Positions 4,234-41,987 of a stretch of DNA of 46,759 nucleotides are shown here, one piece after another. Each line of letters opens with the position of its first letter. Position 1 is the stretch's first letter. The stretch spans positions 1 to 46,759 of the forward strand of contig NZ_LIPV01000014.1 in the NCBI RefSeq assembly GCF_001418255.1. The letters are read 5' to 3'. The translations under genes and the position numbers were made by a program. The notes beneath the pieces are model-generated. The model did not search any database. It had not been told where the DNA came from and saw only the letters and a program-made list of their open reading frames with translations. The stretch is from Thiomonas bhubaneswarensis. Its GTDB lineage: Bacteria > Pseudomonadota > Gammaproteobacteria > Burkholderiales > Burkholderiaceae_C.

Positions 4234-4376
4234 TGTGGATAAGACAAAAAGTGCAGTGTTCATGCGGCTTGCATCGTTGCAAGGGGCTGTGGACAAACAG
4301 CCGGGAGACAAAGGACGGTTTGGAACAACTTGCCTCGAGCCGCACGACTTGCCGATTTATCCAGAAATTCTTCACA
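4234..4376. promoter_or_regulatory. DnaA-box cluster in the dnaA-dnaN intergenic region, probable part of oriC
   Basis: Within 143 bp there are four 9-mers matching or nearly matching the DnaA box TTATNCACA. An exact reverse-strand box is at 4234-4242 (TGTGGATAA). One-mismatch copies are at 4288-4296 (TGTGGACAA), 4357-4365 (TTATCCAGA) and 4368-4376 (TTCTTCACA). Clustering between dnaA and dnaN is a classic oriC location. I see no clear AT-rich unwinding element, so the functional origin could also involve the other side of dnaA. Confidence 0.65.
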
Positions 4377-4445: not shown

Positions 4446-5894
<1,449 letters not shown>

Positions 5895-9185: not shown

Positions 9186-10604
9186 ATGAATCTGCTGGCG
9201 CGTGACGGCGATCCGATCGTGGCGGTGGCCACCGCGCCCGGGCGCGGTGCCGTGGGCATCGTGCGGGCCTCGGGCAAGTCGCTGGCTGACGTGGCCCGCG
9301 CCATCACCGGACGGGAGCTCGTCGCGCGTCATGCGACCTATCTGCCGTTCAGGGACGCTCGGTGCGAGGTGATCGATCAGGGGCTGGCGCTGTACTTCCC
9401 TGCGCCGCACTCCTACACCGGCGAGGACGTGCTGGAGTTGCAGATCCACGGCGGGCCGGTGGTGCTGCAACTGCTGCTTGCCCGGCTGCTCGAACTTGGG
9501 GCGCCCTTGCGCCTGCGGCTGGCCGAACCCGGCGAGTTCACCCGGCGCGCGTTTCTCAATGGCAAGCTCGATCTGGCGCAGGCCGAAAGCGTGGCCGATC
9601 TGATCGATGCCAGCACCGAAGCGGCTGCCCGCAGCGCCACGCGCGCGCTGGCTGGCGAGCTGTCGCGCGCTGTGGGCGAGCTGGCCGCCGAGCTGGTCGA
9701 ACTCAGACTGCTGGTCGAAGCCACGCTCGATTTCCCCGAGGAGGAGATCGATTTTCTGCGTCAGGCGCAGGCGCAGCAGCGCTTGCAGGCTCTGCAGCAG
9801 ACACTGCAGCAGGTACAGGTCAGGACGCGGCAAGGCGCGCTGTTGCGCGAGGGGCTGCGCGTCGTTCTGGCCGGACAGCCGAACGTGGGCAAGAGCTCTT
9901 TGCTCAACGCCCTGGCGGGCGCCGAGCTGGCCATCGTCACGCCCATTGCCGGCACCACGCGCGACAAGGTCAGCCAGACCATCCAGATCGAGGGCGTGCC
10001 GCTGCATATCGTCGATACCGCCGGGCTGCGCGACAGCGCCGACGTGGTGGAGCGCATCGGCGTGGAGCGCAGCTGGCACGCCATTGCCGACGCCGATGTG
10101 GTGCTGTTCCTGCACGATCTCACCCGCTTGCATGCGACGGGTTATGCCCAGGCCGAGGCCGACATTGCCCGCGGGCTGCCCCAGGGCGTGCCGCTGCTGC
10201 ATGTGTTCAACAAGCGCGACCGTGTCGATGTCGCAACGTTGACCTTGCAACTCCCGCAAGTCTGGTCGGATTGGGGGATGGAGGCGGGCGAATCAGTCTG
10301 GATCTCGGCCGCCAGCGGCGAGGGCCTGCAGACCTTGCGCTACCAACTGCTTGCCCTGGCCGGGGCGCAGCAGGGCAGTGAAGGCGTGTTCATCGCGCGC
10401 CAGCGGCATGTGCAGGCCCTGGCGCAGACGCGGCAGCACCTCGACGCCGCCCTGCGCCTGATCGAGCTCGACGCGCAGGCGCCGCTCGACCTTCTGGCCG
10501 AGGAGCTGAGACTGGCGCATCAGGCGCTGATGGCCATCACCGGGCAATACACCCCGGACGATCTGCTCGGCGCGATCTTCTCCAGTTTCTGTATCGGCAA
10601 GTAG
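9186..10604 (+). CDS. mnmE: tRNA uridine-5-carboxymethylaminomethyl(34) synthesis GTPase MnmE
   Basis: Works with MnmG (also in this window) to modify uridine 34 of certain tRNAs. The 472 residues include an N-terminal folate-binding domain ([47 protein letters not shown]), a helical domain, and an inserted G domain: G1 GQPNVGKSS (about 230-238), G2 GTTRD (256-260), G3 DTAG (277-280), G4 NKRD (342-345). The C-terminal FCIGK carries the catalytic cysteine. It ends the rightward cluster, 31 bp after yidC. Confidence 0.97.
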
Positions 10605-12880: not shown

Positions 12881-13034
12881 AATTCCCAAGGTTTTGATTC
12901 AACACAATAAAAAGAGTCATCGACCGGGCGCGAACCGAATCGGGCCCGCCCGTCGGACCGCCCGAGCCTACGGAACACGGCCCGACGCCAGTTTGGGTAA
13001 GCTGCCAGACTTTTCCCGGCCTAGTCCACTGCCC

Positions 13035-14324
13035 ATGACCCACGTTCTGCGTCATCCCCCCGTTCGTCTTGCCCTGCTGTTCTGGGGCATAGGCGCGGCG
13101 GCCTATATGGTGGGGTTCTTTCTGCGGGTCACGCCGGGCGTGCTCAATGTCGATCTGATGCGCGATTTTCATCTCAATGCCGCGCAACTGGGCAATCTGG
13201 CTTCGTTCTATTTTTATTTTTACGCCGCCTCGCAGATCCCGACCGGGATCGCCAATGATCGCTTCGGCCCCAAGATCCTCATCGTGGTCGGACAGGCCAT
13301 CACCGGCATCGGGGCGTTGTTGTTCGCGCTGGCGGGCAGCTTCGAATCGGCGGCGGTGGCGCGCGCCCTGATCGGCCTGGGGCATGGAGTGGCCTGGGTG
13401 TCTTTGCTCGAACTATCGGCGGCCTGGTTCGCGCCCAGGGTGTTCGGCACCATGTCGGGCCTGTCGCTGGCCCTGGGCACGCTCGGCGCGGTGCTGGCGC
13501 AGGCGCCCTTGCTGATGTTGTCGCACAGCTTCGGCTGGCGATGGGTGCTCGGCGCGGTCGGGGTGCTGTGTCTGGGCTTGTCGTTGCTGGCGCTGCTGCG
13601 CATCCGCAATCGGCCCGAGGACCTGGGTTTCGACGGTTACCTGCCCGCGCGCAGGGTGCCCACGCTGGCCGAGGTCGGGCGCGGCCTGGGGGAAGTCTGG
13701 CGCTATCGCAATACCGTCCTGCTGTTCATGGCGCCGGGTGGGGTGTGCGGCGCGTTTCTGACTTTCACCACGCTCTGGGGCATGCCGTTCCTGACGCAGC
13801 AGCGATCACTGCCCGCGGGACAGGCTTCGTGGGTGGTGGCGGCCATGCTGGTGGCGTTTTCCGTCGGCGGCGTCTTGTGGGGGCGGATTTCGGATCGCTG
13901 GCGCCGTCGCAAGGCGCCCTATCTGCTCGGCGGGGTGATGATGCTGACGGGCTTTTCGCTGCTGGTGTTCTGGCCCCAGGCGCCCTGGGTTTTGATGCTG
14001 CTCGGGCTGCTGCTCAGCTCGGTAGGCTCGGGCGGCATGGTGGTGGGGTTCGCCTGGGCCAAGGAGTCGGTGCCTCAGCGGCTCGCTGGCACGGCCTCGG
14101 GCGTGCACAACACTGGGGTGATGGTGGGCGCGCTGGTGCAACTGCCCTTGCTGGGCTGGGTGCTCGATCTGTTCTGGAAAGGCCAGCAGTCGGGTGGGGT
14201 GCGCTTGTACGACGGTGTGGCGTTTCAGGCGGCCAACGGGGTGTTGCTGGCCTGGATTGCGGTGTCGGTGCTGTGCGTGCTGCTGGCGCGCGAGACGCAC
14301 GCACGGCCCCTCGCAACGAGTTGA
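13035..14324 (+). CDS. MFS transporter
   Basis: A 12-helix major facilitator superfamily permease, 429 residues. The loop 2-3 motif appears as GIANDRFGPKILI. The second half has the matching GRISDRWRRRKAPYL. The conserved helix-5 region is GTMSGLSLALGTLGAVLAQAPL. The family usually exports drugs or imports organic anions; the substrate cannot be assigned. The start ATG gives MTHVLRHPPVRLALLFWG; a longer in-frame reading upstream is basic and unlike a transporter. The divergent ArsR-type regulator could control it. Confidence 0.9.
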   Translation: MTHVLRHPPVRLALLFWGIGAAAYMVGFFLRVTPGVLNVDLMRDFHLNAAQLGNLASFYFYFYAASQIPTGIANDRFGPKILIVVGQAITGIGALLFALAGSFESAAVARALIGLGHGVAWVSLLELSAAWFAPRVFGTMSGLSLALGTLGAVLAQAPLLMLSHSFGWRWVLGAVGVLCLGLSLLALLRIRNRPEDLGFDGYLPARRVPTLAEVGRGLGEVWRYRNTVLLFMAPGGVCGAFLTFTTLWGMPFLTQQRSLPAGQASWVVAAMLVAFSVGGVLWGRISDRWRRRKAPYLLGGVMMLTGFSLLVFWPQAPWVLMLLGLLLSSVGSGGMVVGFAWAKESVPQRLAGTASGVHNTGVMVGALVQLPLLGWVLDLFWKGQQSGGVRLYDGVAFQAANGVLLAWIAVSVLCVLLARETHARPLATS

Positions 14325-17979: not shown

Positions 17980-18459
17980 ATGACGCATTTCTGGCTGCTT
18001 GCACTGCATTACCGCACCCTCAGTCTGATCGTTCTGGGCTTGGTGCTGGCGGGCCTGACCCTGCTCACCAGCTCGCGCGCGGCGCACGATCTGCGCGTGG
18101 CGCAGGTGCTGTTGCGGTGGTTTTTGCTGTGTGCGGTTGGCGTGGGTTTTCTGGTGCTGGGAGCGCAGCATCTGCTGCCGGGCGCAGCGCCCGACCCGGC
18201 GCGGTTTCAGCTCGGGCTGGCGGCGCTCGGCATGGCCGCGGTCGGCGTGGCCGCGGCCTGGGGCGATCTGGGCGCGAGGCTGGCGGCCTTGATCGGGCCG
18301 TCGGTGTGGATCGTCGGCGCGTTGCTGGGCCAGGCGGCGGCGCCGTCAGCCCTGTTCGGCCCCGCCGATCTGCTGCTGCCCCTGGTGGGCTTCGCGCTGC
18401 TGGCCTGGCAGTTCAGGGCGCAGCGGCACCGTAGCGTGTTTGCGCGTTCGCGGCTGTGA
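17980..18459 (+). CDS. Small multi-helix membrane protein of unknown function
   Basis: 159 residues, mostly hydrophobic, with about four predicted transmembrane helices (LSLIVLGLVLAGLTLL; LLRWFLLCAVGVGFLVLGA; LGLAALGMAAVGVAAAW; LLPLVGFALLAWQF). I do not recognise the family. A GAGGAGACG sits just before the ATG, supporting expression. The last 47 bases overlap the 3' end of the leftward BtuF-like gene, so the basic tail RAQRHRSVFARSRL is read through opposite-strand coding sequence. It follows the CMD-like gene by 36 bp. Confidence 0.7.
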   Translation: MTHFWLLALHYRTLSLIVLGLVLAGLTLLTSSRAAHDLRVAQVLLRWFLLCAVGVGFLVLGAQHLLPGAAPDPARFQLGLAALGMAAVGVAAAWGDLGARLAALIGPSVWIVGALLGQAAAPSALFGPADLLLPLVGFALLAWQFRAQRHRSVFARSRL

Positions 18460-19291
18460 GCCTCGACGAAAACGCGGCGAGCTGGCGCAGGCCGTCTATG
18501 GTGCGCACGCCGTACCAGCTGGCCCATTCTCCGGGGATGCAGTGCACGGCCGGATGCAGGCCGCGGCGTGCGAGCAGCTCGCGCACTTCGTCGGCATGCC
18601 TTGGGCCGAAGCGATAGGGCTCGCTCGACAGCAGCACCGTGTCCACCTGGGTCAGCCAGTCGGCAGACCAGTCGAAGGCCGGATAGCGGGTGGAACCCGG
18701 CTGGTGCAGCCCGTCGCCGCCGCGCACGTCGGGCAGGGTGTGCAGGCCGACGGCTGCGAGACTGCGGCTGATGTAGGTGTCGCGGGCGACGGTCATCCAC
18801 GGCTGGCGCCAGATCAGATAGAGCGCATGGTGTGGCGGCGGGGTGGGCGGCAGGCTGTCGAGCGCCAATCGCATCGCCTTGCGCAGCGCCGCGGCACGCT
18901 CGGGCACACCGGGTACGCCCGCGAACGCCGCGCCGAGCAGGTCGAACAAGGCGAGGTTGTCCTCCGGCGTCTGCGGATGGGTGACGATGACCTGCGGCAC
19001 GAAGCGGCGTAGCGCCTCCACGGTGTCACGGGTGTTTTCGTCCACGTTGACCAGCACATGGCTGGGGCGCAGCGAGCGCAGCGCATCGAGGTGGACATCC
19101 TTGGTGCCGCCGACCTTGGGCACGGCGCCGACCTGGTCGCGGGGATGGATGCAGAACCCGGTGCGGGCGACGATCTGCGCCTGCAGCCCGAGCGCGAACA
19201 GGGTTTCCGTCAGGCTGGGCACCAGGCTGGCGATGCGCGCCTGCGGGCCCGCCGCGACGACGGGCTGGCCGATGGCATCGTGCAGGGGCAT
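18413..19291 (-). CDS. BtuF-like helical-backbone metal receptor (cobalamin/metal-chelate binding)
   Basis: A periplasmic-binding-protein fold of the BtuF/FhuD class (two lobes joined by a rigid helix), 292 residues. Family marks are RIASLVPSLTETLFALGL, the segment VGGTKDVHLDALRSLRPSHVL, and PAFDWSADWLTQVDTVLLSSEPYRF in two blocks. Relatives bind cobalamin, haem or metal chelates for ABC importers. No signal peptide is visible (it opens MPLHDAIGQPVVAAG), so it may be cytosolic or mis-started. It begins 13 bp after the NRPS stop and is probably in its operon. No permease or ATPase partner is nearby. Its 3' end overlaps a convergent gene by 47 bp. Confidence 0.83.
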   Translation of the reverse strand: MPLHDAIGQPVVAAGPQARIASLVPSLTETLFALGLQAQIVARTGFCIHPRDQVGAVPKVGGTKDVHLDALRSLRPSHVLVNVDENTRDTVEALRRFVPQVIVTHPQTPEDNLALFDLLGAAFAGVPGVPERAAALRKAMRLALDSLPPTPPPHHALYLIWRQPWMTVARDTYISRSLAAVGLHTLPDVRGGDGLHQPGSTRYPAFDWSADWLTQVDTVLLSSEPYRFGPRHADEVRELLARRGLHPAVHCIPGEWASWYGVRTIDGLRQLAAFSSRLTAANAQTRYGAAAP

Positions 19292-19304
19292 GAGGAGAGC
19301 GGCT

Positions 19305-22300
19305 TCAGGCGGCGTCGATCCGGCTGGGGGCCGAGCGGGCTATCTGCCCGAGATTCTCGAAGATGAGACGGCGTGGCGCGAGGCGCCAGCCCAGCTGTTG
19401 TTCGATGGCGAGGACCGCGCGCATGGCCAGCAGGGAATGGCCGCCGAGGTCGAAGAAGTTGTCGGTGCGCAGAACCTGATCGACACCGAGCAACTCACGC
19501 CAGATGGCGGCGATCAGGCGCTCTTGTGGTGTGGCTGGTTGCTCTGCGGCGCGAGTGTCGGCCATGCGGTCGGGGGCGTCGGGCTGCGGGGCGGGCAGCG
19601 CGGTGCGGTCGAGCTTGCCGTTGGGCAGCAGCGGCAGCGCGGGCAACGGCACGATGTGCTGCGGCACCATGTAGTCGGGCAGGCGCGCACGCAGGGAACG
19701 GCGCAGGTCTGCGGCAGACGCTGCGGCGACACCGGGCGCGGGCACGATGTAGGCCACCAGGCGAACATCGTCCGGCGTGGGGGCATGGGTGGTGAGCACG
19801 CAGTCGGCAACGCCGGTCTGCTCGCGCAGCGCGGCTTCGATCTCGCCGAGTTCGACGCGGTAGCCGCGAATCTTGATCTGATGATCCAGCCTACCGAGGT
19901 ATTCGAGCTGGCCGTCGTGCCGCCAGCGGCCGAGGTCGCCGGTCGTGTAGAGCCGGGCCTGTGCGTCGACGCTGAACGGGTCGGGGATGAAGCGCTCGGC
20001 GGTCAGTTCGGGGCGCTGGAAATAGCCCAGCGCCACCCCGGCGCCGCCGATGTGGATTTCGCCGGGCACGCCGATGGGGCAGAGCTGGCCCCGGGGATCG
20101 AGCACCCAGACCTGGGTGTTGGCTATCGGCCGTCCGATGACGATGGGCTGCTGCGGCTGCACCCGCCAGCAGGTGGACCAGACGGTGGTTTCGGTGGGTC
20201 CGTACAGATTCCAGACTTCGGCGCAGGCGGCCAGCAGGCGGGGGGCGAGGTCGGCGGGCAGGGCCTCGCCGCCGATGAAGGCGCGCAGACCGGGGCCGCC
20301 GCGCCAGCCGGTGTCGAGCAGCATGCGCCAGGTCGAGGGCGTGGCCTGCATCACGCTGGCGCCGCTGCCTCGCAGCAGGTCGCGCAGGGCGTAGGGGACG
20401 CGCGACTGGGCGTGATCGGCGAGCACCACGCGCGCGCCTGCGGCCAGCGGCAACAGCAGTTCGAGCACGGCGATGTCGAACGACAGGGTGGTGACGGCCA
20501 GCAGCGCGTCGTCAGCCTTCAGGCCGGGTTCGCCGGCCATGCTGTGCAGAAAGTTGATCACGGCGCGGTGCGGAACGACCACGCCCTTGGGCCGTCCGGT
20601 GGAGCCGGAGGTGTAGAGGATGTAGGCGGGGTCTTCGGGCCGGGGCGCGTGGGCGGGGTCGGTCGCGAAGGCGGGAGCGTCGGCCGCGGCGTCGAGGGCG
20701 ATTTGCGGCACGCCGGTGGCGGCCAAGAGTGGCAGCAGGTCGGTCTCGGTGAGGATGCAGCGCAGCTCGGCGTCGGTGGCCATGTGGTGCAGGCGCGCAG
20801 GTGGAAAGCCGGGGTCGAGCGGCACGTAGGCGGCGCCGGTATGCAGCACGGCCAGCAGGGCGGCGAGCATGTCGGCGTGACGGTGCAGGCAAAGCCCGAC
20901 GCGGTCGCCCCGGCCGACGCCCGCATGCTGCAACAGCCCGGCGATCTGCAGCGCGCGGGCGTGCAGTTCGGGGTAGCGCAGGCTGCGGCCGCTGGCGTCG
21001 GTCACGGCAAGGCGATCGTGCCGTTCGGGGGCATCGAGCCGCAGATAGTCGGGCAGGTTGCGCGCGGGCGGGGGCGGTGCCTGGGTGGCGTTCCACGAGT
21101 CGAGCAGGGCGCGTTGCGGCGCGGTGATCAGCGGGTGAGCGCCAAGCGGCGCCTGCGGCTGGGACAGAAGCTGTTCGGTGAGCTGCACATAGCCGTCGAG
21201 CAGGCGCTGCGCGGAGTCGGTGCTGAACAGGTCGGTGGCGTATTCGAGCTGGATGCGGTGGCTGAATTCGGTGTCGATATGCAGCGACAGGTCGAACTGC
21301 GCGGCCACGCGGTCGAAGTCGAAGGGCTCGTAGGTGAAGGGCACGGCGACGGCCTGGCCCAGAGGGGCGTTGAGCACGTTGAACAGCACCCGCACCAGCC
21401 CCTGGGGATGATCGGCGCGCAGCGCATCCATGCGCTCGACCAGTTCGTCGAAGGGGGCGTCCTGGTGGGCGTAGGCCTGCAGCGCCGTATCGCGCACCTG
21501 CTGGACCAAGTCGTGAAACGACTGGTCGAGATCGACCCTGTTGCGCAGCACCAGGGTGTTGACCAGGGTGCCCACGAGCTGCTCGGTGGCGGCGTGATGC
21601 CGGTTGGCGATGGGGGTGCCCACGGCGATGTCGCTGCTGCGGGTGATGCGCGCCAGCAGCACGTCGAAGCTGGCCAGCAGCAGCATGAAGGGGGTTACGC
21701 CATGCGCCGCGCAGTAGCCACGCAGGGCTAGTCGCAGCGGCTCGCTGAGCGGCGCATGAACGCTGCGGCCCTGGAAGCTGGGCTGCGATGGGCGGGGGAA
21801 GTCGGTCGGCAGCGGCAGGTCGGCCAGGCCTTGCAGGCGCTGCATCCAGTAGTCGAGTTGCGCCTCGCGCGCGGCGGCCACAGCGGCGCTGCGCTGCCAG
21901 GCGGCGTAGTCGGCGTATTGCAGGGGCAGCGGAGGCAGGCCCATGTGGGCGGCATCGGTCTTGCCCTGAAGCAGACCGGCGTAGATCTGCATGGCCTCGC
22001 GCCCGAGGATGGCCAGCGACCAGTTGTCGGCGATGGTGTGGTGCAGCACCCAGAACAGCACATGGTCGTCTTCGCTCAGGCGCATCAGGCAGACTCGGTG
22101 CAGCGGCGCGCGGGCCAGGTCGAACGGGCGGGCGAGGAAGGCGGTGGCGGCCTGCCGGGCCGCGGCCAAGCGCGCATCGGCCGGGAGGTGGCGGAAGTCG
22201 AGGATGTCGAGCCCGGGAGCCACGGACGGCAGGATGACCTGCACCGGCTCCTGGCCGCGCAGGGCGAACTGGGTGCGCAGGCCTTCGTGCCGCGCCACGA

Positions 22301-25300
22301 GCTTGGCCAGCGCGCGCTCGAACGTCGGCAGATCGAGCGGCCCGCGCAGGCGCAGCGGCGCGGTGACGTTGTAGGCCAGGGTCTCGGGATGGAAATGCTG
22401 GATGACCCACATGCGGCGTTGCGACAGCGAGGCGGGCAGGTCGCCGCTGCGGTCGGCCATGGGAATGGAGGCCTGCTGCCGCGCCTCGTGCAGCCGCTCG
22501 TCGATATGGCGCGCCAGCGATTCGAGGGTGAGGTGGGTGAACAGCGCGGCCAGCGGCAGCTCGAGGTCGAAGCGCGCCTGGATGCGCGAGCGGACCTGGG
22601 TGAGGGTGAGCGAATGGCCGCCGAGGTCGAAGAAGTGGTCGCCGATGCCGAAATCGGTGGTGTGCAGCACTTCGCTCCAGATGGCCCAGAGGGTGTGCTC
22701 GGTGGGGGTGCGCGGCGGGGTGGACTCGACCGTGGCGGCGGCCTGCGCGAGAACTTGGGGCACGGGCAGTTGGCGCTTGTCGAGCTTGCCGCTGGCCGTC
22801 AGCGGCAGGCGGGGCAGGATTTGCCAGGCGGCGGGAACCATGTAGTGCGGCAGGCTGTCCTTCAGTGCCTGGCGCACCGAGGCCAGCACCGTACCGTCGT
22901 GTTCCTCACGCAAGACGAGATACGCGGCCAAGCTGGGCTCGCCCGATGCGGCCGTCCAGACGGTGACGGCGGCCTGGGCGACTGCGGGATGGCGCAGCAG
23001 CGCGGCTTCGATGTCGCCGAGCTCGATGCGAAAGCCGCGCAGCTTGATCTGGTCGTCGCTGCGACCGAGGATGTGCAGTTGACCGTCTTGCGACCAATAG
23101 CCCAGATCGCCGCTGCGGAACATCCGCGAGCCGGTATGTAAGGGATCGGGGATGAAGCGCGCCGCTGTCAGCTCGGGCTGACCGAGGTAACCGCGCGCCA
23201 CGCCCAGACCGGCGATGCAGACCTCGCCGACGACGTCGAAGGGCAGCGGGCGCAGCCGCGCATCGAGCACATGGATGCGGGTGTTGTCGATCGGGCGGCC
23301 CACCGGCAACGAGCCGCCGCTCTGGGTGATGGGGCCTTCGATGACATACAGCGCGCTGTCTTCGGTGGTTTCGCTCGGGCCGTAGAAATTGAGGAGACGC
23401 GTCTGCGGCAGCAGCGCCTGGAAGTGCGCAGCGAGTGCGGCGTCGAGCGGTTCGCCGCCGAACTGGAGGTAGCGCAGGCTGGTGCAACGGGGCAGCAGCG
23501 GGTCGTCGGCCAGAGCGCGGGCGGTGGACGGCGCCAGGGTCAGATGGGTTATGCCCTCGTCGATGACGTATTGCAGCAGGGCGTGCAGATCGCACTGCAG
23601 GCCGGGCGGGGCCAGGTGCACCGCAGCGCCGCAAATCAGGGGCACGAAAAACTCGGAAACCGAGGCGTCGAAACTCAGCGACGATTTTTGCAGCAGCCGG
23701 TCGTGCGGGCCGAAGTCCACCGCGCGGGCGTTCCACAGCTTGTGGTTGCACAGCGCGCGGTGGCTGAGCATCACGCCCTTGGGCTGGCCGGTGGAGCCGG
23801 AGGTGAAGATGACCACCGCAAGGTCGTCGGGTGTGTTCACCACCTCGGGCGGCGCGGCGGGGCCGCCCGAGGCAAGGTCGGCATCGAAGATTTGCAGGTC
23901 GGCGTCAGCCAGCGCTTCGCGTAACGCCGCGTGCTGGGCCTGCGCGGCCAGTAGCACCCGCGCGCCGGTCTGCCACACGATGGCACGCACGCGCTCAGCG
24001 GGTAATTCGGCGTCAAGTGGCACATAGGTGCCGCCCGCCTTGAGCACGGCCAGCAGCGCGACGACGAGCTGCGGACGACGCTCCATCAGAACAGGCACGC
24101 AGACGTCGCGCCCCACGCCCTGCGCGCGCAGGGCGTGGGCCAAACGGTTGGCTGCCCGCTCCAGCGCCTCATAGCTCAGTTCGGATGCGCCGAAGCGCAC
24201 CGCGCAGGCCTGCGCGGTGCGGCGCGCCTGCTCGGCTACGAGGGCGTGCAGGCATTGGGGATTGGGGCGCGGCTGCGGCGCGGGCTGCAGCGCGTTGAGC
24301 GCGGCAAGCTCGGCGGGGGAGAGCAGGTCGAGGTTGGCGAAAGTGCCCTGCGCATCCCCGGCCAGCTGCTGTAGCAGGTGGTCGAGGCGCTCGCGCAGAA
24401 AGCGGGTGTGCCGCAACGCCGCCGGGGCGCGCGGGTCGATGACGAAGTCAATGGGCGCGATCGGCGCGTCGGCGTAATGGCGCACATAGGCGGCGATGGG
24501 CGCGAAGCCGGGGTGGCCACTGAACGGCGCGAAGCTGAGCCGGGCGGCGCCGAGCGTGGCGTGTTTGCCGAAGTCCTCGACCGACACCATGAGGTCGAAA
24601 TGCATGCCGGGAACGCCCTGCCGCGGCGGCAGCCGGGCGATGGCGTCGTCGAGCGGGTATTGCTGGTGCCGCAGGACTTGCCGGGTGTCTTCGGCCAGCG
24701 CTCGCATGCCCTGGTGCAGGGACGTCAGCGGCGCGCTGTCGAGCTCCACGGGCAGGGTGTTGGCGAACACGCCCAGGGTACGCTTGTCGATGGCGTCCTT
24801 GCGGTTGTGCAGCGGCATGCCCAGGCGCACGCGGTCTTGCCCGGTGATGAGGGCGATATAGGTGCCCAGCATGAACAGCACGGCCTGCGCGGCAGACAGC
24901 CCCTCGGCGGCAGCGCGTTCGACATAACGCTGCCAGGCGCCGGGATCGGGGTTCCAGCGCATCAGGGCGGGGGCGGCGAGTACCTGCGGGACGGGTGCGG
25001 AAGCATGGCCCGTGGCCGCACTGTGGGCGAGGCGCTCGCCCCAGAAGGCGCGGTCGCGGGCGTGGCGTTCGGACTTCAGATAGGCCTGCTCGCGGGAGAC
25101 GAAGCGCGCATAATCGGCGCCGGGTGCGAGCGCAGGCGCTGCGCCTTGCGCCAGATCGTCGTAGCGCTGGCGGATGGCCTCGCCCACCAGCAGTACCCCC
25201 CAGCCGTCGACCAGCAGATGGTTGAAACTCAGCAGCCAGGCCCAGCGCGCCGGGGCGAGGCGATAGAGGACGAAATGCCAGAGGGTGTCGCCCATCGGGT

Positions 25301-25685
25301 CTATGCCCCGATCCTTGACGGCGGCGATGGCGCGCTCGGCGCACTCGGTCGCCTGCTCGGAAGTCTCGGTCTGAGCGGCACAGTCGATCACAGGCAAGCG
25401 CCAGGACAGCGTGGGCGCATAGTGCCAGCGGGGACCTTCTGGCGATTGTTCGATGCGCGCGCGCAGCATGGGCTCGGCGGCGATGACGTCCTGGGTGGCG
25501 CGTTCGAGCAGGGCGGGGTCGATGTCGCCTTCGATCTGGACGGTGAGACCGATGGTGTAGATGGCGCTTCCGAGCAGTTCCTGACGCAACAGGATGGCCT
25601 GCTGCGTCAGGCTCAGCGCGCACGGGGCCGCGGCGGGTGCTGGCTCCGTGGGGTGGGCGTGAGGGCTGTACAGGCAGGCCGACAT
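19305..25685 (-). CDS. Bimodular nonribosomal peptide synthetase, C-A-PCP-C-A-PCP, no release domain
   Basis: 2126 residues from the ATG (a TTG one codon upstream is also open). Residue numbers are approximate. C1 (25-470) has NHLLVDG in place of HHxxxDG. A1 (480-975) has FTSGSTGQPKG and SGKLDK. PCP1 (995-1060) has DLGGHSL with Ser1026. C2 (1085-1530) has HHTIADN. A2 (1545-2030) has LYTSGSTGRPKG and NGKLDR. PCP2 (2055-2120) has DLGGHSL with Ser2085. By alignment to the GrsA pocket positions, A2 reads D-I-L-Q-F-G-L-V-W-K, close to glycine codes as I remember them; A1 reads D-A-S-T-Q-G-F-E-D-K, which I cannot assign. No thioesterase, reductase or epimerase domain, and no MbtH or phosphopantetheinyl transferase gene nearby. 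A BtuF-like gene follows. Confidence 0.96.
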   Translation of the reverse strand: MSACLYSPHAHPTEPAPAAAPCALSLTQQAILLRQELLGSAIYTIGLTVQIEGDIDPALLERATQDVIAAEPMLRARIEQSPEGPRWHYAPTLSWRLPVIDCAAQTETSEQATECAERAIAAVKDRGIDPMGDTLWHFVLYRLAPARWAWLLSFNHLLVDGWGVLLVGEAIRQRYDDLAQGAAPALAPGADYARFVSREQAYLKSERHARDRAFWGERLAHSAATGHASAPVPQVLAAPALMRWNPDPGAWQRYVERAAAEGLSAAQAVLFMLGTYIALITGQDRVRLGMPLHNRKDAIDKRTLGVFANTLPVELDSAPLTSLHQGMRALAEDTRQVLRHQQYPLDDAIARLPPRQGVPGMHFDLMVSVEDFGKHATLGAARLSFAPFSGHPGFAPIAAYVRHYADAPIAPIDFVIDPRAPAALRHTRFLRERLDHLLQQLAGDAQGTFANLDLLSPAELAALNALQPAPQPRPNPQCLHALVAEQARRTAQACAVRFGASELSYEALERAANRLAHALRAQGVGRDVCVPVLMERRPQLVVALLAVLKAGGTYVPLDAELPAERVRAIVWQTGARVLLAAQAQHAALREALADADLQIFDADLASGGPAAPPEVVNTPDDLAVVIFTSGSTGQPKGVMLSHRALCNHKLWNARAVDFGPHDRLLQKSSLSFDASVSEFFVPLICGAAVHLAPPGLQCDLHALLQYVIDEGITHLTLAPSTARALADDPLLPRCTSLRYLQFGGEPLDAALAAHFQALLPQTRLLNFYGPSETTEDSALYVIEGPITQSGGSLPVGRPIDNTRIHVLDARLRPLPFDVVGEVCIAGLGVARGYLGQPELTAARFIPDPLHTGSRMFRSGDLGYWSQDGQLHILGRSDDQIKLRGFRIELGDIEAALLRHPAVAQAAVTVWTAASGEPSLAAYLVLREEHDGTVLASVRQALKDSLPHYMVPAAWQILPRLPLTASGKLDKRQLPVPQVLAQAAATVESTPPRTPTEHTLWAIWSEVLHTTDFGIGDHFFDLGGHSLTLTQVRSRIQARFDLELPLAALFTHLTLESLARHIDERLHEARQQASIPMADRSGDLPASLSQRRMWVIQHFHPETLAYNVTAPLRLRGPLDLPTFERALAKLVARHEGLRTQFALRGQEPVQVILPSVAPGLDILDFRHLPADARLAAARQAATAFLARPFDLARAPLHRVCLMRLSEDDHVLFWVLHHTIADNWSLAILGREAMQIYAGLLQGKTDAAHMGLPPLPLQYADYAAWQRSAAVAAAREAQLDYWMQRLQGLADLPLPTDFPRPSQPSFQGRSVHAPLSEPLRLALRGYCAAHGVTPFMLLLASFDVLLARITRSSDIAVGTPIANRHHAATEQLVGTLVNTLVLRNRVDLDQSFHDLVQQVRDTALQAYAHQDAPFDELVERMDALRADHPQGLVRVLFNVLNAPLGQAVAVPFTYEPFDFDRVAAQFDLSLHIDTEFSHRIQLEYATDLFSTDSAQRLLDGYVQLTEQLLSQPQAPLGAHPLITAPQRALLDSWNATQAPPPPARNLPDYLRLDAPERHDRLAVTDASGRSLRYPELHARALQIAGLLQHAGVGRGDRVGLCLHRHADMLAALLAVLHTGAAYVPLDPGFPPARLHHMATDAELRCILTETDLLPLLAATGVPQIALDAAADAPAFATDPAHAPRPEDPAYILYTSGSTGRPKGVVVPHRAVINFLHSMAGEPGLKADDALLAVTTLSFDIAVLELLLPLAAGARVVLADHAQSRVPYALRDLLRGSGASVMQATPSTWRMLLDTGWRGGPGLRAFIGGEALPADLAPRLLAACAEVWNLYGPTETTVWSTCWRVQPQQPIVIGRPIANTQVWVLDPRGQLCPIGVPGEIHIGGAGVALGYFQRPELTAERFIPDPFSVDAQARLYTTGDLGRWRHDGQLEYLGRLDHQIKIRGYRVELGEIEAALREQTGVADCVLTTHAPTPDDVRLVAYIVPAPGVAAASAADLRRSLRARLPDYMVPQHIVPLPALPLLPNGKLDRTALPAPQPDAPDRMADTRAAEQPATPQERLIAAIWRELLGVDQVLRTDNFFDLGGHSLLAMRAVLAIEQQLGWRLAPRRLIFENLGQIARSAPSRIDAA

Positions 25686-25849
25686 CAAAAAAGCTCGCTG
25701 CAGAAGGCGTCAGGCCCTCTATTCTGACTGGGGCGTGTGAACGCTGTGGATGGTTCCGGGCAAGGCAACCCTAACAGTCCTTCGATTCGTGAACTATTCC
25801 ACTATTGCGGGGTGGGCGCCGATTTGCGGGACGTTGTATCGGCCCTACG

Positions 25850-27466
25850 ATGGAGCCCTCAGCCGGTCTCGAACGGCTCGCCGCCCCGCTCAGCATGACT
25901 GAAGCCAAGACGCCCCCCCAAACCGCAGCAGACACCCGCGCCGAATGGCGTCTGGGGTGGGACGGCCTGTTCGCCGATGCTGCGCAGGAGGAGACGTTCG
26001 TTCGCGAGGAATGGACGGTCATCGGGCCGAGGGTGCGTCAGATCGGTCTGTACGGTTCGCTCGCGTTCCTGTCGGCCACCTTCACCGATCTCACGGTGCT
26101 GGGGGCGACCTGGGTTTATTGGAGTCTGCTGACGGCGCGGTTCGGCATCCTGGCCTGGGGTCTTTGGCTGGCGCGCGTGGGCAAGGCGCGCACCGTGCCC
26201 AATGTGCGGCGGGTTGCGACCGCGCTGCTCGGCTTCGAGCTGAGCATCATGGCGCTGTTTCTGCTGGTGGTGCTGGCTTATGGTGGCAGCGCCGACTACC
26301 ACTCGATTACCGCGCTGGCCCTGATTTTTGCCGGTTACGCCTATGTGCCGGTATTGCGGCGCGAAGCCATGTGGGTGGGCGGCCTGTTCACGCTGCTGTT
26401 CGCCGTGGTGATCTGGACCTCCCTGCACTACGACGCCAAATTCATCAGCATCGCCGTCGTGTTGTTCGGTTTTGCCAATATCGCGGGGTGGCAGATCGCG
26501 GTATCGCTGAGCCGAAGCATGCGCTTGGCCTGGGTCGATCGACAGCGCCTGCGCGTCGAGGCAGAGGCGGCGCAGCAGGCCAAGCACATGGCCGAGCAGA
26601 GCGAGGAGAATCTGCAGCGGCTCTTCGACGCGGCGCCGATGCCGCTGGTGCTGGTGCGCATGGCCGATGCCCGGGTGCTGCGTTTCAACGCCGCGGCCAA
26701 GGCGCTGATCGACCCCGATGGTGCCTTGCAAGGCGACATCTACAGCACCGATTTCTACGAAAACCCGGCACAGCGCGACCAACTGATCGCGCGACTTCAA
26801 GCCGAGGACGCCGTCGGCCAGGTGGAGGTGCGGCTGAAGACGGTGCGGGGCACCGCCGTGGACGTGCTGTTTTCGATGCGCAAGGTGCGGTTTGCCGGAG
26901 AAGACTGTGTAATCACCGGCATGGTCGAGATTTCGGCCCAGAAGTCGCTGGAGCGACAGTTGCGGGCGCTGGCGTTCACCGATCCGCTCACCGGCTTGCA
27001 GAACCGGCGAGGGTTTTTCACCCTGGTCGAGCGCGCGATGGCGCAATCGGCACTCGACTCGGTCGGGCCTTGCGTCGTGCTGATCGACATCGACCATTTC
27101 AAGAGAATCAACGACCGCTACGGTCACCCGGTGGGTGACGAGGTGCTGGTGCAGTTCGGCCAGGTCGTGCTGGCGCTGCTGCGCGATGGCGATGTGTTCG
27201 CCCGGCTGGGCGGAGAGGAGTTCTGCATCCTGCTGCCGCATACGCGAGCCGCGCAGGCGCTGGAAGTGGCCGAGCGGGTGCGCGAATTCGTCGCGGCCCA
27301 CCCTTTCCAGACCATGGCCGGTGTGGTGCGGCTCAGCCTCAGTCTGGGCGTTGCCGGCTGCGACGCACCCGTCCAGAGCATCGATGCCGTGCTGTCGATG
27401 GCCGATCAGGCGATGTACCGCGCCAAGCAGGGCGGGCGCAACCGCACCGAATTGCACTGTGCCTGA
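25850..27466 (+). CDS. Membrane diguanylate cyclase with MASE-like, PAS and GGDEF domains
   Basis: Makes the second messenger cyclic di-GMP. The protein has an N-terminal region of about six transmembrane helices (roughly 60-225), a short coiled linker (VEAEAAQQAKHMAEQSEEN), a PAS domain (NLQRLFDAAPMPLVLVRMADA onward, two blocks) and a C-terminal GGDEF domain. The active site is RLGGEEF. The inhibitory I-site RxxD is present as RDGD, five residues before GGEEF, so product inhibition is likely. Metal and base binding appear as DIDHFKRINDRYGHPVGDE. The start is uncertain: ATGs at 25850 and 25895 and a TTG at 25805 are in frame. Divergent from the NRPS. Confidence 0.9.
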   Translation: MEPSAGLERLAAPLSMTEAKTPPQTAADTRAEWRLGWDGLFADAAQEETFVREEWTVIGPRVRQIGLYGSLAFLSATFTDLTVLGATWVYWSLLTARFGILAWGLWLARVGKARTVPNVRRVATALLGFELSIMALFLLVVLAYGGSADYHSITALALIFAGYAYVPVLRREAMWVGGLFTLLFAVVIWTSLHYDAKFISIAVVLFGFANIAGWQIAVSLSRSMRLAWVDRQRLRVEAEAAQQAKHMAEQSEENLQRLFDAAPMPLVLVRMADARVLRFNAAAKALIDPDGALQGDIYSTDFYENPAQRDQLIARLQAEDAVGQVEVRLKTVRGTAVDVLFSMRKVRFAGEDCVITGMVEISAQKSLERQLRALAFTDPLTGLQNRRGFFTLVERAMAQSALDSVGPCVVLIDIDHFKRINDRYGHPVGDEVLVQFGQVVLALLRDGDVFARLGGEEFCILLPHTRAAQALEVAERVREFVAAHPFQTMAGVVRLSLSLGVAGCDAPVQSIDAVLSMADQAMYRAKQGGRNRTELHCA

Positions 27467-28511: not shown

Positions 28512-29411
28512 TCAGGACGGCGAATCCTCGGCTCGAAGCAGGGCGAGGAGGCCGTCGAGTTCGTCGAGGGAGCCAAAGCGCAGCGCGATTTCGCCGCGCA
28601 TCTTGCCCTGGCGTTGGGACTTGCCGCGGATTTCGACGGTGGTCCCGAAGCGCTCGGAGAGCTCTTCCTCAAGCCTTTGCCAGTCGCGGTCTTTGGCGGC
28701 TGCGGCGGCTTTGGCCGGGCGATTGGTCGGCGCGCCCTGATGGGTGCGAGCGACGAGCTTTTCGGCTTCGCGCACGCTCAGGCGTTTGGCGAGGATCTGC
28801 TGTGCGGCCTGAACCTGCTGCGCCTTTTCCAGCGAAAGCAGGGCACGGGCGTGACCCATGTCGAGATCACCGGCCAGAAGCATGGTCTGCACCGCATCGG
28901 CCAACTGCAGCAGGCGTAGCAGATTGCTGGTGGCGGTGCGGGAGCGGCCGACGGCCTGCCCGGCCTGCTCATGGGTGTAGCCGAATTCTTCGATCAGACG
29001 GGCGATGCCGCGGGCTTCCTCGAGCGGGTTGAGATCTTCGCGCTGGAGGTTTTCGATCAGCGCCATGGCCAGGGTGTCGCGGTCGTCGGCGTCCTTGACG
29101 ATGGCGGGAACGGTGTCGAGCCCGGCCAGGCGGGCGGCGCGTGTGCGTCGCTCTCCGGCGATGATCTCGAACCGGCCATCGGGCAGGGCGCGCACGAGCA
29201 CGGGCTGCATCACACCCTGCGTCTTGATGCTCTGGGCCAGCTCATAGAGTGCGCCTTCGTCCATCTGCGAGCGGGGCTGGTAACGGCCGGGAACGAGATC
29301 GTCCAGGCGAAGTTCGCGCAAGGCTGAGGCATCACTGTCGGTCAGGTCGACGGCGGGGCCGAGCAGTACATCGAGTCCGCGGCCCAGACCTTTGGGTTTT
29401 TTGGTAGCCAT
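28512..29411 (-). CDS. parB: Chromosome-partitioning protein ParB
   Basis: Binds parS and spreads along DNA as a CTP-dependent clamp to organise origin segregation. The chosen ATG gives 299 residues starting MATKKPKGLGRGLDVLLG, the standard opening for the family. CTP-binding motifs are visible: PGRYQPR, the GERRTRAARLAG block and ENLQREDLNPLEEA. The central HTH (YTHEQAGQAVGRSRTATSNL) contacts parS. The C-terminal dimerisation region ends LDELDGLLALL. It is separated from parA by a hydrolase gene; two exact parS sites lie upstream. Confidence 0.97.
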   Translation of the reverse strand: MATKKPKGLGRGLDVLLGPAVDLTDSDASALRELRLDDLVPGRYQPRSQMDEGALYELAQSIKTQGVMQPVLVRALPDGRFEIIAGERRTRAARLAGLDTVPAIVKDADDRDTLAMALIENLQREDLNPLEEARGIARLIEEFGYTHEQAGQAVGRSRTATSNLLRLLQLADAVQTMLLAGDLDMGHARALLSLEKAQQVQAAQQILAKRLSVREAEKLVARTHQGAPTNRPAKAAAAAKDRDWQRLEEELSERFGTTVEIRGKSQRQGKMRGEIALRFGSLDELDGLLALLRAEDSPS

Positions 29412-29434
29412 AGGTGTGGCGGTTGAAAACGGGT

Positions 29435-30007
29435 TCAGTCGTTGAAAGGGGAAGCCGGGTGCGAGCTGCGGCGCACTAGCTCGTCGAGAAGATGGCGGCC
29501 CTGCGGCCAATCACCCAGCCCCGATTCGGCGTTGACGTGGCCGCAAGGCCCGAGATCGACAAAGCCAGCACCCCAGCGTTCGGCCAGGCGCTTGGCGGCG
29601 GCAAGACGGCAGTAGGGGTCGTCGGCGCTGGCGGCGACGGTCGCGGGAAAGGGCAGCGGCGGCTGCGCCAGGGCGCGGCGCCAAGGCATCAGAACGGCGG
29701 GCAGTTGCGAGCCGTGCAAGTCGGGGGGCGCGACCAGCAGGGCGCAGACGACCCGGTCGGTATGCCGCGAGCTGCTGGCCCAGGCGTCGATCAGGTGGCA
29801 GCCCAGACTATGCCCGACGAGAGCGACGGGGGCGGTCTGCGCCAGAATCACGTCTTCCAGGCGGGCGACCCAGTCACCGCGGCGCGGCACCTCCCAGTCG
29901 GCCTGTTCCACTACGGTGTCGCCATAGCGCGCGGCCCAGCGGCGTTGCCAGTGCTCGGGGCCGGAGCCTAGCCAGCCGGGCAGCAGCAGGATGTGCGGTA
30001 GCGTCAT
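29435..30007 (-). CDS. RBBP9/YdeN-family alpha/beta hydrolase
   Basis: A small serine hydrolase of 190 residues. The opening ILLLPGWLGSGPEHWQRRW is typical of the RBBP9/YdeN group. The nucleophile elbow is GHSLG, with a probable catalytic Asp in ASADDPYC and His in GPCGHVNAESGLGDWPQG, all present. The substrate is unknown. It starts 10 bp after the parA stop, and parB starts 23 bp after its own stop, so it sits inside the partition operon. The start is the ATG at 30007; a 46-residue upstream extension overlaps parA and is spurious. Confidence 0.9.
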   Translation of the reverse strand: MTLPHILLLPGWLGSGPEHWQRRWAARYGDTVVEQADWEVPRRGDWVARLEDVILAQTAPVALVGHSLGCHLIDAWASSSRHTDRVVCALLVAPPDLHGSQLPAVLMPWRRALAQPPLPFPATVAASADDPYCRLAAAKRLAERWGAGFVDLGPCGHVNAESGLGDWPQGRHLLDELVRRSSHPASPFND

Positions 30008-30017: not shown

Positions 30018-30791
30018 TCAGGCCGCGACCGCGAGGCGATCGACCATTTCCTGGGCGAATTCGATGAACGCCTTAGCGCCCCGGCTGCCGGGATCGAACA
30101 CCACACCGGGCAGCCCGTAGCTGGGGGCCTCTGCGAGCCGGACATTGCGCGGTATGACGGCGTTGAACACCTTGTCGCCGAAATGCGCCTTGATCTGTTC
30201 GCTGACCTGCTGCTGCAAGGTGATGCGGGGATCGAACATCACCCGAAGCAGGCCGATGATACGAAGGTCACGATTGAGGTTGGCATGGACCTGCTTGATG
30301 GTGTTGACCAGGTCGGAAAGGCCTTCGAGCGCGAAGTATTCGCACTGCATCGGCACGATGACGCCATGCGCGGCGCACAGGCCGTTGAGGGTCAGCAGTC
30401 CGAGGGCGGGCGGGCTGTCGATGAGGATGAAGTCGTAGTTCGTTTGAACGGTGGCCAGCGCGGATTTGAGGCGGCGTTCGCGCTGGGCAAGATCGACCAG
30501 TTCGACCTCGGCACCGGCCAGCTCACGGTTGGCGCCGATGATGTCATAACCCGCCTTGGTATTGCGCTGCAGAGCCTGCCCAAGCTCGCTCTGACCGATG
30601 AGCACTTGGTAGATCGATGCTTCGAGGGTGTGCTTGTCCACGCCCGAACCCATGGTGGCGTTGCCTTGCGGGTCCAAGTCGACCAGCAGGACGCGCTGGC
30701 CGATGCGAGAAAGTGCGGCGGCCAGGTTGACACTGGTGGTTGTCTTGCCGACCCCACCCTTCTGATTCGCGATGCAAAAAATCTGCGCCAA
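30018..30791 (-). CDS. parA: Chromosome-partitioning ATPase ParA
   Basis: A Walker-type ATPase that positions origins together with ParB. The 257 residues open MAQIFCIANQKGGVGKTTTS, with the deviant Walker A KGGVGKTT at 11-18. Other marks are VLLVDLDPQGNATMGSG and FILIDSPPALGLLTLN. The start codon is TTG, supported by GGAGAG about 7 bases upstream and by the exact fit of the family N-terminus. It follows rsmG by 85 bp; that gap holds an exact parS site at 30813-30828. Confidence 0.96.
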   Translation of the reverse strand: MAQIFCIANQKGGVGKTTTSVNLAAALSRIGQRVLLVDLDPQGNATMGSGVDKHTLEASIYQVLIGQSELGQALQRNTKAGYDIIGANRELAGAEVELVDLAQRERRLKSALATVQTNYDFILIDSPPALGLLTLNGLCAAHGVIVPMQCEYFALEGLSDLVNTIKQVHANLNRDLRIIGLLRVMFDPRITLQQQVSEQIKAHFGDKVFNAVIPRNVRLAEAPSYGLPGVVFDPGSRGAKAFIEFAQEMVDRLAVAA

Positions 30792-30876: not shown

Positions 30877-31548
30877 TCAACGTTCTACGGCGCGCTGCAA
30901 CCAGACCAGGCAGCGCTGCGCGTCCAGCCCGGGCACCTGCAAGGGTTCGATGCGGGCGCGCACGAGGCAGCTCACGGCCGTGATCTCATCTTCGGGCGGA
31001 TGGCCCTTCATCGCACACCATTGCCCTCCCGGCGCGAGCAGGTGTGTCGTGCTCTTGACCAGCAGGGGCAGATCGCTGAAGGCGCGGCTGGTGATGCAGT
31101 CGAAGCCGTCAGGATCGGCCAGCGTCTCGACGCGCGCATGATGTACCTGTACGTTCTGGAGTTGCAGGCTGCCGCAAGTCTGCTGCAGAAAGGCGCACTT
31201 CTTCTGCACGGTGTCGACCAGATGCACAGCGGCATCGGGCAGGCCGATGGCAAACACGATGCCGGGCAGGCCGCCGCCCGAGCCGACGTCGAGCAGGCGG
31301 CGCGGTGCCAGCCGCTGCAGGGCGGGCAGGGCGGTCAGGCAGTCCGCCAGATGCAGTCGAGCCATGCCTTCGACATCGCGCACGGCGGTGAGGTTGAACA
31401 CCCGGTTCCAGCGCTGCAGCAGCGCGGTGTAGTCGAGCAACTGCTGCTTTTGGGTCGAGCTGAACGTCAGCCCGAGCGCGCACAGGGTCTGCTCCAGATA
31501 ACCCTCAAGGTCAAAGCCGCCTTCCGCGGTGGCGCCAGCGCGGGTCAC
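30877..31548 (-). CDS. rsmG: 16S rRNA (guanine(527)-N7)-methyltransferase RsmG
   Basis: Methylates G527 of 16S rRNA using S-adenosylmethionine. The 223 residues include [14 protein letters not shown], the SAM-binding [16 protein letters not shown], the acidic [12 protein letters not shown] and [11 protein letters not shown], all in family order. The chosen start is a GTG at 31548 that overlaps the mnmG stop (GTGA), which gives the usual length; an open frame of about 180 further residues upstream is the antisense-like shadow of mnmG. Second gene of the mnmG operon. Confidence 0.95.
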
Positions 31549-33479
31549 GCGACGGCATCCTTCTCCAGTTTCAGCGCCTGTTTGAGCACGCCTTTGCGCA
31601 AATGAATCAGGAGCAGGGAAACGGCAGCAGGGGTCATGCCCGAGAGCCGCGATGCGACCCCAAGGGTTTCGGGCCGCGCCTGATTCAGCCTTTGTTGCAC
31701 CTCGATCGACAGCCCGGACACCTCGCGGTAGTCGAGGTCTGCGGGCAGGCGCAGCGATTCGTGCTGCGCGGCCCGCTCCACTTCGCCCTGCTGCCGCTCG
31801 ATATACCCGGCGTACTTGATGTGAATCTCGACCTGTTCGCGTTCGGTGTCTCCCAGGGGTGCTTCCGGCGCAAAGTCGGGATGGGGGAAGGCGGTCAAAG
31901 TGTCGTAGCGCAGCTCGGGGCGACGCAACAGGTCGGCGAGGTTGTATTCGCGCTCGATGGCCTTGCCCAGCAGGGCCTGCGCCTGCTCGGGCGGCAGGGT
32001 CTGCGGCGTGACCCAGGTGGAGCGCAGACGCTGGATCTCGCGCTCGATGGCGTCGCGCTTGCGGCAGAAGGCGTCCCAACGGGCATTGCTCACCACGCCG
32101 AGTTCGCGGCCGATTTCGGTCAGGCGCAGATCGGCGTTGTCCTCGCGCAGGCTGAGGCGGTATTCGGCGCGACTGGTGAACATGCGATAAGGCTCGTTCA
32201 CGCCCTTGGTCACCAAATCATCGACCAGCACGCCCATATAAGCCTGATCGCGTCGCGGGCACCAGGGCTCACGCCCCTGCACCTGCAGTGCGGCGTTGAT
32301 GCCCGCGAGCAAGCCCTGCGCCGCAGCTTCCTCGTAGCCGGTGGTGCCGTTGATCTGCCCCGCGAAGAACAGACCGTCGATGGACTTGGTCTCCAGCGAG
32401 GTCTTGAGTGCCATCGGGTTGAAATAGTCGTACTCGATGGCGTAGCCGGGGCGTAGCAGGTGGGCGTTTTCCAGCCCCGGAATCGAATGCACCATGGCAA
32501 GCTGCACATCGAAGGGCAGGCTGGTCGAGATGCCGTTGGGATAGAACTCGTTGGTCTGCAGGCCTTCGGGCTCGAGAAAAATCTGGTGCGACGACTTGTC
32601 GGCGAAGCGGTGGATCTTGTCTTCGATGCTGGGACAATACCGCGGCCCCACGCCTTCGATGACTCCGGTGAACATCGGGCTACGATCGAGCCCGGCGCGA
32701 ATGATGTCGTGCGTCTGCTGCGTGGTGTGGGTGATCCAGCACGCCACCTGCGTCGGGTGCTGGTCGGCCGAGCCGAGAAAACTGAACACCGGGATGGGAT
32801 TGAGATCGCCCGGCTGCTCGATCAGCTTGGAGAAGTCGATGGTGCGGCCATCGATACGGGCCGGGGTGCCGGTTTTGAGGCGGCCCTGCGGCAAGGCGAG
32901 CGCCTTGAGGCGGGCGGAGAGCCGCTGCGCCGGGGGATCGCCAGCACGCCCCGCAGCGTACTGGTCGAGGCCGATATGAATCTTGCCGTCGAGAAACGTC
33001 CCGGCGGTGAGCACCACGGTGCGGGTGCGAAAACGAATGCCCGTCTGGGTGACCACGGCCGTGACACGCTCGCCCTGACCCGTGGATTCCACCAGTAGAT
33101 CGTCGGCGGCCTGCTGGAACAGCCAGAGGTTGGGCTGATTTTCCAGGCGTCCCCGAATGGCGCGCTTGTAGAGTTGGCGATCGGCCTGTGCCCGTGTGGC
33201 GCGCACGGCGGGGCCCTTGCTGGCATTGAGCACGCGGAACTGGATGCCAGCCTCGTCGGTGGCTTCGGCCATCGCCCCGCCGAGGGCGTCCACTTCCTTC
33301 ACTAGATGGCCTTTGCCTATGCCGCCGATGGACGGGTTGCACGACATCTGCCCCAGGGTTTCGATGTTGTGGGTCAGCAGCAATGTGGCGCAACCCATGC
33401 GCGCGGCGGCAAGGGCCGCTTCGGTGCCGGCGTGGCCTCCGCCGATGACGACGACATCAAAGTTACGCGGATAATCCAC
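31545..33479 (-). CDS. mnmG: tRNA uridine-5-carboxymethylaminomethyl(34) synthesis enzyme MnmG
   Basis: The FAD-dependent partner of MnmE in tRNA wobble-uridine modification. The 644 residues start at a GTG (33479) preceded by GAGGAGG; the product opens [20 protein letters not shown], the family's FAD-binding start. Other marks are [22 protein letters not shown], the second dinucleotide motif [28 protein letters not shown] and [20 protein letters not shown] in blocks. It is the first gene of the leftward mnmG-rsmG-parA-hydrolase-parB operon. An in-frame 109-residue upstream extension crosses parS and is rejected. Confidence 0.97.
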
Positions 33480-33548
33480 GGTGTGCGCCTCCTCTATTTG
33501 GACGTGCATTTTATGCGGGTTAACCCTGGATGCGGCTTTGAGGGGATT

Positions 33549-33564
33549 TGTTTCACGTGAAACA
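33549..33564. promoter_or_regulatory. parS site
   Basis: A second exact TGTTTCACGTGAAACA palindrome, 70 bp upstream of the mnmG start and 44 bp upstream of the Crp-type gene. It therefore sits in the divergent promoter region of both, and ParB binding here could affect either. Confidence 0.95.
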
Positions 33565-33607
33565 CGCTGCGCTGGCCCGCCCCGTTGCACCACAACGATC
33601 AACTTCC

Positions 33608-41952: not shown

Positions 41953-41987
41953 CGTGAACTCCTGTTGAAGGTGGAACAAATCAGAGC

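Follow-up and report, generated by a model that had tools for sequence, protein, structure and literature searches.

A bimodular nonribosomal peptide synthetase gene beside an apparently older BtuF-fold receptor gene at the chromosome origin of Thiomonas

The locus and the synthetase

The window analysed here, 46,759 nucleotides, is the entire contig C14 (NZ_LIPV01000014.1) of the 3.2 Mb genome of Thiomonas bhubaneswarensis, which is assembled in 23 contigs. On its minus strand lie a gene for a bimodular nonribosomal peptide synthetase (NRPS) and, 13 bp after the NRPS stop, the start of a gene for a BtuF-like receptor (Table 1). The genes of the window are those of an origin region, with gyrB (471-2954), dnaN (3051-4247), dnaA (4446-5894) and mnmE (9186-10604) on the receptor side and parB (28512-29510), parA (30018-30791) and gidA (31545-33806) beyond the NRPS; in Thiomonas, the NRPS and receptor genes sit beside the chromosome origin (dnaA/parAB/gidA). 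The original prediction, made from the letters of the window, had described a synthetase of condensation (C), adenylation (A) and peptidyl carrier protein (PCP) domains in the order C-A-PCP-C-A-PCP, a BtuF-like receptor 13 bp on and a position near the origin, all of which was confirmed by Pfam, NCBIfam and the open reading frames. Orthologues of both frames occur in the same order in other Thiomonas genomes, and chance reading frames are excluded by their domains, synteny and dN/dS ratios.

Table 1 Features of the NRPS-receptor locus in the window.
Feature	Coordinates	Strand	Assigned by	Remark
DUF6790 protein	17980..18459	+		convergent; older neighbourhood; final 47 bp overlap receptor 3' end
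BtuF-fold protein (TroA_like), 292 aa	18413..19291	-	PF01497, NCBIfam	no signal-like leader
Pro253 codon of receptor	18533..18535	-		D253P at a nearly invariant Asp; in 12/12 Thiomonas receptors tested
Gap, NRPS stop to receptor start	19292..19304	-		13 bp
Bimodular NRPS, C-A-PCP-C-A-PCP	19305..25685 from ATG; 19305-25688 from in-frame TTG	-	Pfam	without thioesterase
PCP2	19335..19541	-	Pfam	final domain; protein ends soon after
A2 adenylation	19584..21041	-	Pfam	hand-read code DILQ(F/L)GLVWK
C2 condensation	21120..22445	-		best PDB match TycC (2jgp); HHTIADN
PCP1	22491..22715	-	Pfam	LGGHSL serine
A1 adenylation	22764..24281	-	Pfam	hand-read code DASTQG(F/Y)EDK
C1, N-terminal condensation	24309..25616	-		putative starter (Cs) domain, RzmA-Cs being its best PDB match; NHLLVDG
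GGDEF diguanylate cyclase	25805..27466	+		divergent neighbour of NRPS; same position in Thiomonas loci reaching it

The NRPS frame encodes 2127 aa, with residues numbered from the TTG at 25688. Pfam found Condensation, AMP-binding, AMP-binding_C and PP-binding twice each and no further family; the C, A and PCP domains follow in order and the PCP serines are present, which identifies the protein as an NRPS. No release domain (thioesterase (TE), reductase or terminal C) was detected in it by Pfam, and the polypeptide ends at PCP2, so that the predicted absence of a TE held. The whole genome contains no MbtH match, PF00975 thioesterase-family matches in only three frames (234-286 aa, on other contigs) and two matches to the phosphopantetheinyl transferase (PPTase) superfamily, on contigs C6 and C8, in agreement with the earlier statement that neither MbtH nor a PPTase lay nearby. 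On C8, the PPTase-superfamily gene adjoins an apparently exported Peripla_BP_2 gene (L074, 70-1875). A truncated NRPS that has lost its TE is unlikely, given that the ten other Thiomonas loci with read 3' ends finish likewise and that four distant homologues are TE-less.

For comparison within the genus we aligned eight of the 11 known Thiomonas NRPSs; the incomplete ones of genomes G201, G203 and G207 were excluded, also from the motif and dN/dS counts. Identity of the window NRPS to the other seven aligned proteins is 66-70%, and dN/dS by domain ranged from 0.05 to 0.44 (three pairs). All eight keep the catalytic motifs of C1 (NHxxxDG), C2 (HHxIxDN) and the two PCPs (GGHS). Two close Thiomonas NRPS genes, at L063 (11755-18324) and L040 (5921-12475), are 94-98% identical in DNA except at codons ~900-1330, where identity drops to 66-77%; this stretch, which covers the end of A1, PCP1 and the first half of C2, looks like a recombined segment.

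The A-domain codes were read by hand. The A1 code given in Table 1 recurs in 8/8 aligned NRPSs, and that of A2 in seven, the eighth having DIAQWGLVWK. We take the A2 code to resemble glycine codes, and on this hand-read basis a product ending in a probable glycine, as predicted, still stands. Outside the genus, A2-PCP2 reached at best 58% identity.

In the PDB, C1 matched RzmA-Cs best (7c1k, E 2e-33), the next different protein being EntF (E 5e-16), and this ranking suggests a starter-type (Cs) condensation domain. RzmA-Cs is described as a starter C domain that uses acyl-CoA and in which the second His is key (PMC7804268). Like that domain (7C1H/7C1K), C1 is N-terminal, opens its assembly line and keeps the second His of the motif, which is invariant in 8/8 aligned Thiomonas NRPSs; unlike it, C1 has Asn in place of the first His, again in 8/8. 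Because C1 is nearest to the lipid-initiating starter C of the rhizomide synthetase, the likely product on the enzyme is an N-acyl-X-Gly thioester, that is, probably an N-acyl dipeptide and not an evident metallophore.

Nothing sets the window NRPS apart from ordinary orphan synthetases, and similar ones occur elsewhere. TE-less C-A-PCP-C-A-PCP proteins are encoded at L187, L188 and L190 (f55, a family of the same class) and at L198 (10857-17717, genome G091, same family as the window), those of L187 and L188 sharing 32.5-32.6% identity with it over the full length. Unlike in the window, no adjacent receptor gene was noticed at these four loci, where no profile search for one was made; beside the L188 gene lie genes encoding a regulator of LuxR type and an efflux protein of the outer membrane, and beside that of L198 a dihydroxy-acid dehydratase gene. 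The nearest paralogue seen, 42.6% identical, belongs to the Thiomonas genome G206 (contig C38, L186); unlike the window gene it lies on a contig other than that of the receptor and runs off before PCP2, and no receptor was noticed on its 9.4 kb. The T. bhubaneswarensis genome itself has a second assembly line on contig C7 (L059, 2424-14842), made of a polyketide synthase-type protein (AMP-binding, ketosynthase, acyltransferase, aminotransferase) and an NRPS (C twice, A once, PCP twice) likewise lacking a TE family match. Among the matches listed for Thiomonas combined with NRPS terms, siderophore or antiSMASH, no title concerned a Thiomonas NRPS.

Fold and predicted location of the receptor

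The receptor scored 32.8 bits against PF01497 (cut-off 27.5) and 109 bits against NCBIfam NF038402 (cut-off 30), a model of TroA_like helical backbone metal receptors that denotes a subfamily without a stated ligand. Its match to the BtuF equivalog was far under the cut-off (20.7 vs 234). An AlphaFold model, computed from an alignment of 44 of the 81 receptors, reached a mean pLDDT of 91 and a pTM of 0.88. Searched with Foldseek, it ranked BtuF first, the top matches being BtuF and heme-binding proteins, and the best 20 had TM-scores by target length of 0.69-0.86. The predicted structure thus has the class III (BtuF/TroA) fold.

The receptor shares this fold with class III substrate-binding proteins of the BtuF/HmuT type, to which it is 14-21% identical; unlike them, it has neither a leader nor an adjacent permease in the scanned neighbours. 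A simple hydropathy rule, used in place of SignalP, found a signal-like leader in 0/80 orthologues, 11 of which have no start codon more than nine residues ahead of the first conserved strand, while a periplasmic binding protein encoded on C8 of the same genome passed the rule as a positive control. Because of this missing leader we read the receptor as cytosolic. Among the scanned neighbours of the receptor there was no FecCD permease; in this genome such permeases exceeded the cut-off on contigs C1 and C8 alone, the importer ATPase not being searched for. By sequence, then, neither an export signal nor an adjacent FecCD gene marks the receptor as the substrate-binding protein of an ABC importer.

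These results bear directly on the earlier proposal that the NRPS makes a metal ligand which the receptor senses or binds in uptake. Gene order speaks for it, as does the BtuF-like fold, whose bearers include binders of cobalamin, heme and ferric siderophores. Against it stand the absence of a signal-like leader, the location of the FecCD permeases of this genome on C1 and C8 and the conservation of the receptor where the NRPS is missing (G206, G032 and L104, below). Furthermore, no gene typical of a metallophore locus (chelator-forming, TonB receptor, ABC importer) was found by Pfam among the scanned window proteins, some window reading frames being unscanned. We therefore reject the metallophore reading, no supporting genes being present among those scanned and the receptor being predicted cytosolic, and regard sensing of a secreted metal ligand as very unlikely. 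The companion claim that neither exporter nor tailoring gene lay nearby needs amending for an MFS transporter gene (12894-14324), ~4 kb past the receptor 3' end and the only exporter-type Pfam match among the scanned window proteins.

Outside Thiomonas, the receptor gene occurs behind argS-SPOR-DsbA-SDR, near SIS/HAD/LptC genes and in other contexts. At L168 (2120-6694) and L169 (6208-10765), an orthologue directly follows a fused gene of methylmalonyl-CoA-mutase type with MeaB and B12-binding parts, a lead to a cobalamin role for the family. One could accordingly picture the receptor family as cytosolic cobalamin-binding carriers or chaperones, with the NRPS an unrelated hitchhiker in its transcript. 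The closest folds do include BtuF with cobalamin or cobinamide, but of 111 loci searched only this related pair shows the mutase setting; the argS-SPOR-DsbA-SDR and SIS/HAD/LptC neighbours are more common, and the BtuF equivalog score is low, as given above. We regard a cobalamin carrier as doubtful, though compatible with our preferred explanation. A BtuF-fold family that is spread across Burkholderiales, lacks an export signal and has a role we did not find merits follow-up.

Age of the pairing across genomes

The receptor is present in 13/13 Thiomonas genomes, and in 11 of them the NRPS lies upstream of it, although the receptor contigs of G201, G203 and G207 carry just part of the NRPS. 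At ten other Thiomonas loci measured, 7-49 bp separate the two genes, which confirms the tight same-strand order predicted for the window. In G208, the contig stops ~60 bp before the receptor, and elsewhere in that genome there is only a weak match to a different C domain. In G206, a metagenome-assembled genome (MAG), the receptor has the same neighbours as elsewhere in the genus, but no NRPS lies between it and GGDEF.

The G206 gap nevertheless resembles the N-terminus of the NRPS. Compared with the first 90 residues, it scored 64, against a maximum of 58 among dinucleotide shuffles (0/500 reaching it), the restriction to 90 residues having been chosen after a shuffle test with whole NRPSs had failed. 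The gap thus holds an apparent remnant of the NRPS 5' end.

Beyond the genus the receptor is widespread: strong matches (E < 1e-30) were obtained in 46 of 200 family genomes, our own genome counted, and 20 of these 46 were examined further. Among 80 named loci, the NRPS stood beside the receptor in five, and each of these contigs belongs to a Thiomonas genome already included above (G200-G203, G209). It was found at none of the 75 non-Thiomonas loci (upstream sequence of 1 kb or more is available for 72 of them) and at none of 18 loci from other genera, four of which repeat contigs of the 75. G032 and L104 retain the receptor, DUF6790, CMD and trxC and lack the NRPS. L103 has the same DUF6790-CMD-trxC side, but just 222 bp upstream are shown.

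These outgroup receptors, and above all G032 and L104 with their DUF6790-CMD-trxC side, led us to reject the arrival of a ready-made NRPS-receptor pair. Taken together with the stretch in the G206 gap, they indicate that the receptor is most likely older than the pairing, the NRPS having joined an existing gene in Thiomonas, and that one lineage, that of G206, has most likely lost the NRPS at this place. The comparison of related genomes that the original prediction had proposed showed co-occurrence in 11/13 Thiomonas genomes and at 0/75 loci outside. Conservation of the receptor at the same locus without the NRPS, named beforehand as a refutation of the proposed unit, is what G206 displays, and an obligate unit of the two genes does not hold.

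Our preferred explanation, to which we assign a probability of roughly 0.55, is that in the Thiomonas ancestor a standalone NRPS settled directly before the gene of a far older BtuF-fold protein of the cytosol and that the two have since been kept mostly as a short-gap unit, the role of the receptor being independent of the NRPS. It draws on the domains, synteny, conservation and order of ages described above, the lack of a leader by our rule and the predicted fold. A PPTase encoded elsewhere would activate the NRPS. From an acyl-CoA, the starter C1 would transfer the acyl group to residue 1 on PCP1, both the acyl donor and the residue being presumptive, and C2 would couple the acylated residue to a Gly-like residue on PCP2. 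As there is no TE, the N-acyl dipeptide would presumably be set free by an enzyme acting in trans or by a nucleophile. The receptor would bind a small ligand in the cytosol, perhaps a tetrapyrrole or a corrinoid to judge from the fold, and could do its work in the absence of the NRPS. The two genes are probably co-transcribed; a consensus scan found no terminator-like or promoter-like site in the gap between them.

Receptor changes in Thiomonas and their bearing on the pairing

As near-invariant columns we took those in which 76 non-Thiomonas receptor orthologues are at least 98% identical, 65 in all. The column test left out the G207 receptor, which is split over two contigs, and five duplicate Thiomonas contigs. 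Eleven Thiomonas receptors break one or two of these columns and that of G206 breaks seven, while the outgroup sequences break 0-2, partly as a consequence of how the columns were defined. The same test on eight other groups, assigned from record titles, gave no clade-fixed change in seven and one in the eighth, four of these groups having only two members.

Several observations weigh against the preferred explanation or its parts. D253P, fixed in all Thiomonas receptors tested, is unexpected for an independent receptor. In the G206 receptor, whose NRPS is lost, the changes fall on 7/29 near-invariant positions of the C-lobe and 0/36 of the N-lobe (Fisher p 0.002, with lobe borders, 124/150, fixed after seeing where the changes fell); without the genus-wide D253P and V156A, which the window receptor also has, the C-lobe count is 5/29 (p 0.014), all five being unique to G206. 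The G206 remnant scored 29 bits against whole NRPSs, and mononucleotide shuffles reached 34. The best matches of C1 outside Thiomonas, among 399 order and 398 phylum genomes, are just 28-31% identical, so that its starter type is drawn solely from the ranking of matches. Finally, in a further MAG (G203, contig C42; L185, 9124-11196), the 5' part of the NRPS gene encodes C1 and then PCP1 with no A1, maybe through an assembly error.

The receptor changes point to another possibility, namely that the receptor was co-opted in Thiomonas and binds the NRPS product, or its metal or cofactor complex, inside the cell for storage, self-protection or delivery. The adjacency kept in 11 genomes with short gaps, the genus-wide D253P set against nearly no clade-fixed changes in other groups, and the altered C-lobe of G206 (one or two changes in the 11 others) all favour it. 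The argument turns, however, on a single loss event in a MAG, and G206 is a diverged lineage whose GGDEF (57-60%) and DUF6790 (49-56%) proteins have diverged as well. We consequently used only the contrast between the lobes and not the long branch: identity to G032 in the C-lobe is 56% for G206 and 70% for G205, compared with 77% and 75% in the N-lobe. In addition, the G206 receptor still has a dN/dS of ~0.33, that genome contains the other bimodular NRPS on C38, and the receptor is normal in G208, where this NRPS did not turn up. A lineage-specific coupling of NRPS and receptor, argued from one loss event, is possible, and we entertain co-option only tentatively. A stronger form, in which the cytosolic Thiomonas protein was recruited to bind the genus's own NRPS product or its metal or corrinoid complex, its cleft changing with the NRPS and decaying upon loss, strikes us as improbable; D253 and the G206 changes would then line the ligand cleft. 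If true, these bacteria would have a receptor inside the cell for a peptide that they make themselves.

Since receptor changes track the genus and the single loss of the NRPS, we grade the interpretation of the original prediction overall as partly supported and not as unsupported. A genus in which one receptor lobe changes alongside the adjoining synthetase merits follow-up.

Elsewhere in the window, a gene for a PCu(A)C-type copper chaperone (41440-41979) lies ~16 kb from the NRPS start, with no link to the NRPS-receptor pair seen. The contig ends, 1-329 and 46431-46759, are identical 329-bp inverted copies encoding the C-terminal end of a transposase of the Mutator family (PF00872), from which the assembly seems to be broken at copies of one insertion sequence.

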